In this document: piece by piece, positions 2,890 to 3,767 of the stretch | Layout: each line of letters starts with the position of its first letter | Position numbering within the stretch: the first letter of the stretch is position 1 | Origin: a virus | IMG/VR virus record: IMGVR_UViG_3300010885_039673 | Coordinates: 1-22,894 of that record | Reading direction: 5' to 3' (one strand) | DNA length: 22,894 nucleotides | The notes under the pieces: generated by a model | Told to the model about the DNA's origin: nothing | The model's database searches: none | Seen by the model: the letters and a program-made list of their open reading frames with translations, nothing else | Translations under genes and position numbers: made by a program

Positions 2890-3081
2890 TTACCCCTGTT
2901 TTTTATTTTGTATTTTACGATTTTCTTCACTAATATAATTAATCAACATAGACACATAAATTTCTCTTTCCCACGGAATCATATTTTCAATTTCTGTTAA
3001 TGAGTATTTATGGTGCTGCATTAACGAGAAATTCAATTGATAGTAGTTTACTAAACTATCATGAGAAAGAGTTAGACGAAA
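2890..3081 (-). CDS. -1 frame extension of gp26 (probable programmed frameshift product; gp51-position)
   Basis: A minus-strand reading frame, -1 relative to gp26, opens after a stop at 3120-3118 and ends with TAA at 2892-2890. Its conserved-looking part contains HDSLVNYYQLNFSLMQHHKY, then SLTEIENMIPWEREIYVSML. No ATG, GTG or TTG occurs before the sequence LVNYYQ. The first TTG lies inside this domain and the first ATG falls further in, so independent initiation would destroy it. A slippery heptamer at 3087-3081 lies in the overlap. Slippage gives gp26 residues 1-229 plus 63 residues, 292 in all. The PWEREIY type of motif resembles, from memory, small gp51-like baseplate proteins of marine T4-like phages and the T-domains of tail-assembly chaperones. 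That the domain is translated is well supported; the frameshift mechanism is inference. Confidence 0.75.
   Translation of the reverse strand, partial: FRLTLSHDSLVNYYQLNFSLMQHHKYSLTEIENMIPWEREIYVSMLINYISEENRKIQNKKQG
3039..3060 (-). other. Inverted repeat downstream of the gp26 slippery site
   Basis: On the minus strand GATAGT and ACTATC can pair as a 6-bp stem over a 10-base loop; a competing hairpin TAGTTT/AAACTA with a 3-base loop overlaps it. It begins 21 bases after the slippery heptamer, farther than the usual 5-9 base spacing of a frameshift stimulator, and it is AT-rich, so any role is doubtful. Confidence 0.3.
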
Positions 3082-3767
3082 AAATTTTGCAGACCCTCTA
3101 AATCCACTGTATTTTTCTTACCGCATGTTGGGCAATCGGCCTCAATATGATGCACAATTCTTGGTAATTTCTCAAAGAATTTTTCTAACAGATCAAACTG
3201 TTTCTTTGAGAATGAATTAATAAAGTCGTCTAATTCTTTTTCAGAATAAGTGTCTTTATCAAAGTATTCTGTTTTTGTGTATACCGCATCTATACAATTT
3301 CCCACTAATGCTAAAATTTTATCAGAATTTGAGTTTTCGTAGATATCTAATATTTCGTCAAATCTAGGATATCGCATAACAACCCCGATATCTTCAGTCA
3401 ACATAATTTTGTTTTCTATGCCTGTTGGTTTATCCACTTCAACTTTGGTTAAATCCATGGCATAGTCTATTTTTTCCCCGCAGTCGCAATTGATAATAAT
3501 ATCAGTAGTTTCGCTAATAGACCTTGCTCGTATGTTTAAGAATAAATATTCTATATCAAAGCTTGCTAATTTATCAATGTCTAATTTTTTAAATGTGCAA
3601 TTATCCACAAGTTCTGTAACTATTCTAGATATCTCTTTGCTTTCTGCTTCCATTGTTGTTAGTAGAATTTTATATTCCTTAACTAAGAATGGTCTGTATT
3701 TGATTTTCTTGCCAGTTGATGGTAACAGCAATTCATAGTTTGGCGTTTCTAATATTGGTAAAGGCAT
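3072..3767 (-). CDS. 26: Baseplate hub assembly protein gp26 (T4_baseplate family)
   Basis: A 231-residue homologue of T4 gp26 (208 residues), a protein needed for baseplate hub assembly. The N-terminus carries the family pattern of a Pro-rich start followed by LLPSTGKKIKYRPFLVKEYK (15-34), then ILLTTMEAES. A CxC pair at C94/C96 (INCDCGEKI) and a CxxC pair at C212/C215 (DCPTCGKK) form a likely four-cysteine zinc site. RYPRFDEI (132-139) is another family landmark. AGGAAC gives a good ribosome-binding site before ATG at 3767. The gene lies 14 bases after the tube-protein gene. The last codons CAA AAT TTT TTC GTC TAA include a slippery heptamer leading to the overlapping -1 frame, so a long and a short form are expected. 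The zinc site and family are read from the sequence; the chaperone role is inference. Confidence 0.88.
   Translation of the reverse strand: MPLPILETPNYELLLPSTGKKIKYRPFLVKEYKILLTTMEAESKEISRIVTELVDNCTFKKLDIDKLASFDIEYLFLNIRARSISETTDIIINCDCGEKIDYAMDLTKVEVDKPTGIENKIMLTEDIGVVMRYPRFDEILDIYENSNSDKILALVGNCIDAVYTKTEYFDKDTYSEKELDDFINSFSKKQFDLLEKFFEKLPRIVHHIEADCPTCGKKNTVDLEGLQNFFV
3081..3087 (-). promoter_or_regulatory. Candidate -1 ribosomal frameshift slippery heptamer A AAT TTT
   Basis: Read on the minus strand in the gp26 frame, the bases are the last A of CAA, then AAT, then TTT. This is an exact X XXY YYZ heptamer in the correct register for tandem -1 slippage. It lies 3 codons before the gp26 stop and inside the overlap with the -1 frame ending at 2890. 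See the extension entry for the product. Confidence 0.75.

Follow-up and report, generated by a model that had tools for sequence, protein, structure and literature searches.

A putative -1 ribosomal frameshift joining gp26 to a gp51-like domain in a T4-like phage contig

The gp26 gene and the frame that overlaps its end

The window considered here is the whole of a 22,894-nucleotide stretch of viral DNA (IMG/VR record IMGVR_UViG_3300010885_039673), in which a gene of the gp26 family overlaps a second open frame on the minus strand (Table 1). The 3’ end of gp26 reads GAG GGT CTG CAA AAT TTT TTC GTC TAA. The -1 frame is free of stop codons from 3117 to 2890, overlapping the end of gp26, and matches phrog_634, annotated as ‘baseplate hub assembly catalyst’ (gp51), with E=1.9e-31. 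A -1 shift would join 230 gp26 codons, through TTC, to 62 codons that begin with CGT at 3078, giving a fusion of 292 residues, the length that a preliminary description of this DNA had proposed. The junction peptide would be QNFFRLT and is identical whether A AAT TTT or T TTT TTC slips.

Table 1. Features of the gp26 locus in the window.
Feature	Position	Strand	Remarks
gp26, short tail assembly chaperone (TAC-N)	3767-3072	minus	231 aa, zero frame; PF12322 1.5e-62, phrog_150 1.5e-65
GAGGG, candidate internal Shine-Dalgarno-like stimulator	3098-3094	minus	9 nt upstream of heptamer; predicted duplex -6.3 kcal/mol
A AAT TTT, heptamer first proposed	3087-3081	minus	in register; not conserved
T TTT TTC, slippery heptamer, putative shift site	3084-3078	minus	NNT TTT TTN in 175/175 related loci
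-1 frame extension, gp51-like C-terminal domain (TAC-C)	3078-2890	minus	62 codons plus TAA 2892-2890; phrog_634; low pN/pS only in -1 frame
gp26 TAA stop	3074-3072	minus	one codon past slip site, as in 124/130 relatives
Possible weak AT-rich hairpin, TGATAGT...ACTATCA	3061-3038	minus	about 16 nt past slip site; -5.9 to -7.1 kcal/mol
Holin-like gene	2384-2884	minus	166 aa; 3-TM holin of gene-transfer agents, PF11351, 4.7e-07
Candidate tape measure gene	753-2384	minus	543 aa

The -1 frame contains no ATG, GTG or TTG upstream of 3036, which bears out the earlier remark that no start codon precedes the domain. The first start codons encountered are TTG 3036, ATG 3021 and ATG 2982, all of which lie within the conserved domain, and a Shine-Dalgarno (SD)-like sequence is absent at each of the three (best +0.2 to +0.6 kcal/mol). 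SD energies at four of the six neighbouring genes tested range from -4.0 to -6.7 kcal/mol (gp26, -4.2; the holin-like gene, -6.7). An independent gp51 start in the window, having neither a start codon before 3036 nor an SD sequence, was therefore rejected. The scanned ORFs of the window, which is a 22.9 kb fragment, included no further PF12322 gene carrying the domain in frame.

The holin-like gene sits between the chaperone gene and the presumed tape measure gene, the latter being a 543-aa ORF located two genes downstream of gp26. Searches of Pfam and PHROG gave this ORF no match with E below 0.001. The corresponding position in the phiM12 record is occupied by a gene labelled ‘tape measure-like’, and location suggests that the ORF is a candidate tape measure protein. 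Within gp26 itself, the cysteine pairs CDCG and CPTCG (~3490-3470 and ~3136-3118, minus strand) resemble a zinc ribbon. Similar pairs are retained in T4 gp26 and in several clades, but many gp26 proteins of the cyanophage type have NPxTG in place of the second.

Slip site and reading register in related phages

Relatives were compared at 175 loci, 130 of them nonredundant, drawn from IMG/VR and from isolates. The in-frame core listed in Table 1 is invariant. It is written TTTTTTC in 123 of the 130 nonredundant loci and T TTT TTT, TTA or TTG in the remainder, while the codon that precedes it varies (AGT, AAT, TCT, GAT, GCT or TAT). The preliminary description had placed the slip one codon earlier, at A AAT TTT. 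That heptamer is in register, but its first codon is not conserved among relatives, and it was rejected as the slip site; T TTT TTC was assigned instead because NNT TTT TTN is invariant and the preceding codon is variable. Taken alone, A AAT TTT is uninformative because such heptamers are common in a window of 34% GC, in which 7149 codon positions contain 12 in-frame A AAT TTT and 75 X XXY YYZ heptamers. The conservation that had been anticipated for the heptamer and its register thus holds for the -1 register and for T TTT TTC, not for A AAT TTT. Phe-Phe is written TTT TTC in 123 of 126 instances at the site, compared with 18 of 131 at other places in those genes (Fisher p=6e-49). In three loci, L164 (Mosig), L154 and L135, the gp26 stop lies eight codons past the slip site and not one, and the overlap between frames is longer.

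Of the 164 loci examined first, each containing both parts, every one has the domain in the -1 register. This register was found in every one of the diverse anchors, namely Vibrio phage ValKK3, Aeromonas phages Aeh1 and AP1, and Sinorhizobium phages phiM12 and phiM9, and also in Rhizobium phage AF3, Acidovorax phage ACP17, Pelagibacter phage Mosig, and Synechococcus and Prochlorococcus phages. A sequencing or assembly indel in the T run, or the decay of a once in-frame gene, might be suspected wherever a single contig has a homopolymer at the junction. However, the register is identical in all relatives, isolates and metagenomes alike, and both parts are under purifying selection. Sequencing error is ruled out by the relatives that share the register, and an indel or decayed gene is vanishingly improbable as an explanation of the locus.

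The codon-position pattern changes frame at the slip site. Over the segment from the slip site to +41, where no start codon has yet occurred, the -1 frame has a pN/pS of 0.36 in the window-like clade and of 0.40 in the 45 of 130 loci that have no ATG, GTG or TTG ahead of a conserved YY motif; in the other frames the value is ~1. In every one of these 45 loci the 0 and +1 frames run into stop codons, and the -1 frame stays open. Over the stretch that separates the slip site from any start codon, the -1 frame alone is under purifying selection.

These measurements bear on whether gp51 might be an independent small protein, its translation coupled to that of gp26 or reinitiated at a start codon close to the gp26 stop, without any frameshift. 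In favour of this, gp51 has a gene entry of its own in databases, and in 56 of the 130 relatives the gp26 stop is followed, two bases on, by an ATG. Such a start is unavailable in the 45 loci described above and in the window before 3036, and selection on the -1 frame sets in at the slip site itself, ahead of any start. Reinitiation also leaves unexplained the invariant T TTT TTN and its placement relative to the SD-like element, and T4 has both parts in one protein. A separately initiated gp51 is therefore a very unlikely account of the locus. The preliminary description had named two arrangements in relatives that would speak against frameshifting: the domain in a different register, or with a conserved start and ribosome-binding site of its own. 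No other register was found in the loci checked; an ATG of its own does occur in the 56 relatives, yet the slippery site is retained there too. Reinitiation may add free gp51 in those ATG-bearing relatives, though not in the window.

The T run at the shift point has six residues in 127 of the 130 loci and seven in 3, so that every locus offers a T6 run on which RNA polymerase could slip and produce mRNAs reading the second frame. The bacterial examples of transcriptional slippage that the Atkins 2016 review covers occur on runs of nine A or T (PMC5009743), and transcriptional slippage is unlikely on run length. The codon phase, the SD-like element and the stem-loop present in many relatives are instead the anatomy of a ribosomal -1 shift. 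Transcriptional slippage is accordingly regarded as highly improbable, and ribosomal slippage on T TTT TTC is the reading adopted below.

Stimulatory elements around the slip site

The codons just before the slip site encode L-E-G-L in most loci. The Glu codon of this motif is GAG in 73 of 101 cases (72%), against a background of 26% (p=3e-21), and pairing with the anti-SD sequence at or below -4 kcal/mol occurs at 86% of sites compared with 13% of random gp26 positions. This comparison argues that the upstream SD-like GAGGG is under selection, and in the window it would be expected to pair with the 16S anti-SD sequence.

Downstream of the slip site, many relatives have a stem-loop that starts 5-7 nt past the heptamer. 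Folding z averages -2.48 over the first 40 nt, compared with -0.27 for a segment starting 20 nt further on. Of the 130 loci, 41 have their longest stem beginning 5 nt past the slip site. Stems of 11 bp are the most frequent (30 loci), and the stem position 13:27 shows compensatory change (T-A in 22, A-T in 19). In many marine relatives (e.g. L017:2711-2772), the presumed gp51 ATG is found inside the 5’ arm of the stem-loop; with that ATG two bases past the gp26 stop, the signals for frameshifting and for reinitiation overlap.

The strong stem-loop of the relatives is absent from the window's own clade, and a conserved downstream hairpin in that clade was rejected as unsupported. The possible weak hairpin at 3061-3038 differs in close relatives and is probably not a conserved stimulator. 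Because the window's clade is without the stem, the SD-like site is the only convincing stimulator there. E. coli dnaX likewise has an upstream SD-like stimulator together with a heptamer, and the window resembles it in both respects (GAGGG at 9 nt), whereas the stem-loop occurs only in many of the window's relatives; a stable stem-loop of the dnaX type, 5-9 nt downstream, was not found in the window's clade. The dnaX gene is unrelated to gp26, and its shift yields a shorter product (PMC5009743).

The T4 arrangement, the proposed mechanism and its meaning

T4 provides a natural comparison, as it contains the same protein parts in a different arrangement. T4 gp51 (249 aa) is gp26-like over residues 1-201 (PF12322, 3.9e-52), and residues 147-246 match phrog_634 (1.2e-23), with phrog_150 spanning almost the whole protein. 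The alignment is gapless across the junction between gp26 and the domain. T4 gp51 is thus a gp26-like domain followed by the same C-terminal domain, in frame, and the T4 proteins are homologous to those of the window. In T4, however, genes 26 and 51 are separate and divergently transcribed, with no heptamer: the Phe-Phe of T4 gp26 is retained but is written GAG TTC TTT, and a slippery heptamer was found in 0 of 9 complete gp26 3’ ends of the T4-type, two-gene arrangement. All 11 frameshift-type phages contain one PF12322 copy, and T4 and RB43 contain two. The relatives use one frameshifted gene and T4 uses two genes. In an unrooted tree of 47 proteins, a branch (99/95) divides the frameshift type from the two-gene type, a pattern that fits a single ancient duplication between the two arrangements; being unrooted, the tree gives no direction.

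Vladimirov, Gautam and Davidson are said to have reported in 2022 that several groups of T4-like phages conserve the frameshift and that T4 relies on genes 26 and 51. Their paper (Virology 566:9-15) identified the tail assembly chaperones of T4-like phages, as cited in PMC10885494 and PMC12846349. According to these citing papers, poly-T -1 signals are known in the TAC-N genes of T4-like phages (PMC12846349), and some T4-like phages have separate short and fused genes (PMC10885494). The doubt voiced in the preliminary description as to whether a frameshift had been described for T4-type gp26 is answered by these accounts of the 2022 work, although a 2016 review still treated T4 as the exception to G-T frameshifting (PMC5009743). 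As far as the citing papers describe it, the published TAC-N/TAC-NC pair is the same gp26/gp51 gene pair, and the window adds a further case, from a viral contig that is unannotated and does not belong to the named isolates. The upstream stimulator and the clade-specific stem-loops may be new details.

From the sequence comparisons, the window phage is T4-like and very probably makes a 292-residue long form (TAC-NC, gp26 plus the gp51 domain) by -1 ribosomal slippage on T TTT TTC; a programmed frameshift of the G/G-T kind, as first suggested for this locus, was supported by every test run. In the proposed mechanism, a minority of ribosomes would be delayed at T TTT TTC as the upstream GAGGG paired with the anti-SD sequence of 16S rRNA, both Phe tRNAs would re-pair one base back, and the shifted ribosomes would pass the gp26 stop into the -1 frame to produce TAC-NC. 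What the comparisons establish is the -1 register, the conserved site, the change of frame under selection and the in-frame T4 fusion; slippage itself, its efficiency and the chaperone role are inferred.

The phage lambda slip heptamer is G GGA AAG, compared with T TTT TTC in the window. In other respects lambda gpG/gpGT (Levin 1993; Xu, Hendrix and Duda 2004, 2014) is alike, with a short chaperone, a -1 extension entered just before the stop, and a long form that gains a C-terminal domain (PMC5009743). The window's gp26 differs in belonging to its own T4-baseplate family, PF12322, and the likeness to gpG described here is one of arrangement. Lambda gpG and gpGT bind the tape measure, recruit the tube protein and then leave (PMC5009743). 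T4 gp26 and gp51 are both classed as chaperones of hub assembly, and T4 gp51 is needed for assembly and is not in the final particle (PMC3004832). By analogy with both systems, the short and long forms of the window may have the same chaperone roles, jointly readying the tape measure or hub for assembly of the tail tube before they leave. Comparison with the PDB by sequence found nothing, and a PDB fold search with a model of T4-type gp51 found no solved structure alike (no E below 0.001). In a viral fold search the matches were gp26-family and T4-like baseplate proteins, along with weaker, mostly uncharacterised ones.

A tentative and rather doubtful extension is that lineage-specific RNA stimulators tune the ratio of short to long chaperone, with the SD-like site alone in the window's clade and the SD-like site plus a stem-loop in many marine relatives, and that free gp51 is a third product of reinitiation where the ATG sits in the stem-loop arm.

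In hundreds of records from cyanophages and other T4-like phages, ‘gp51, baseplate hub assembly catalyst’ either stands as a gene in its own right, its start chosen arbitrarily, or is absent. The suspicion that such small genes are extensions with wrong starts is supported here; they are probably misannotated, and the records need correcting to a -1 frameshift extension of gp26. Set beside the T4 pair, the frameshift phages offer a clean case of one recoded gene in place of two paralogues.
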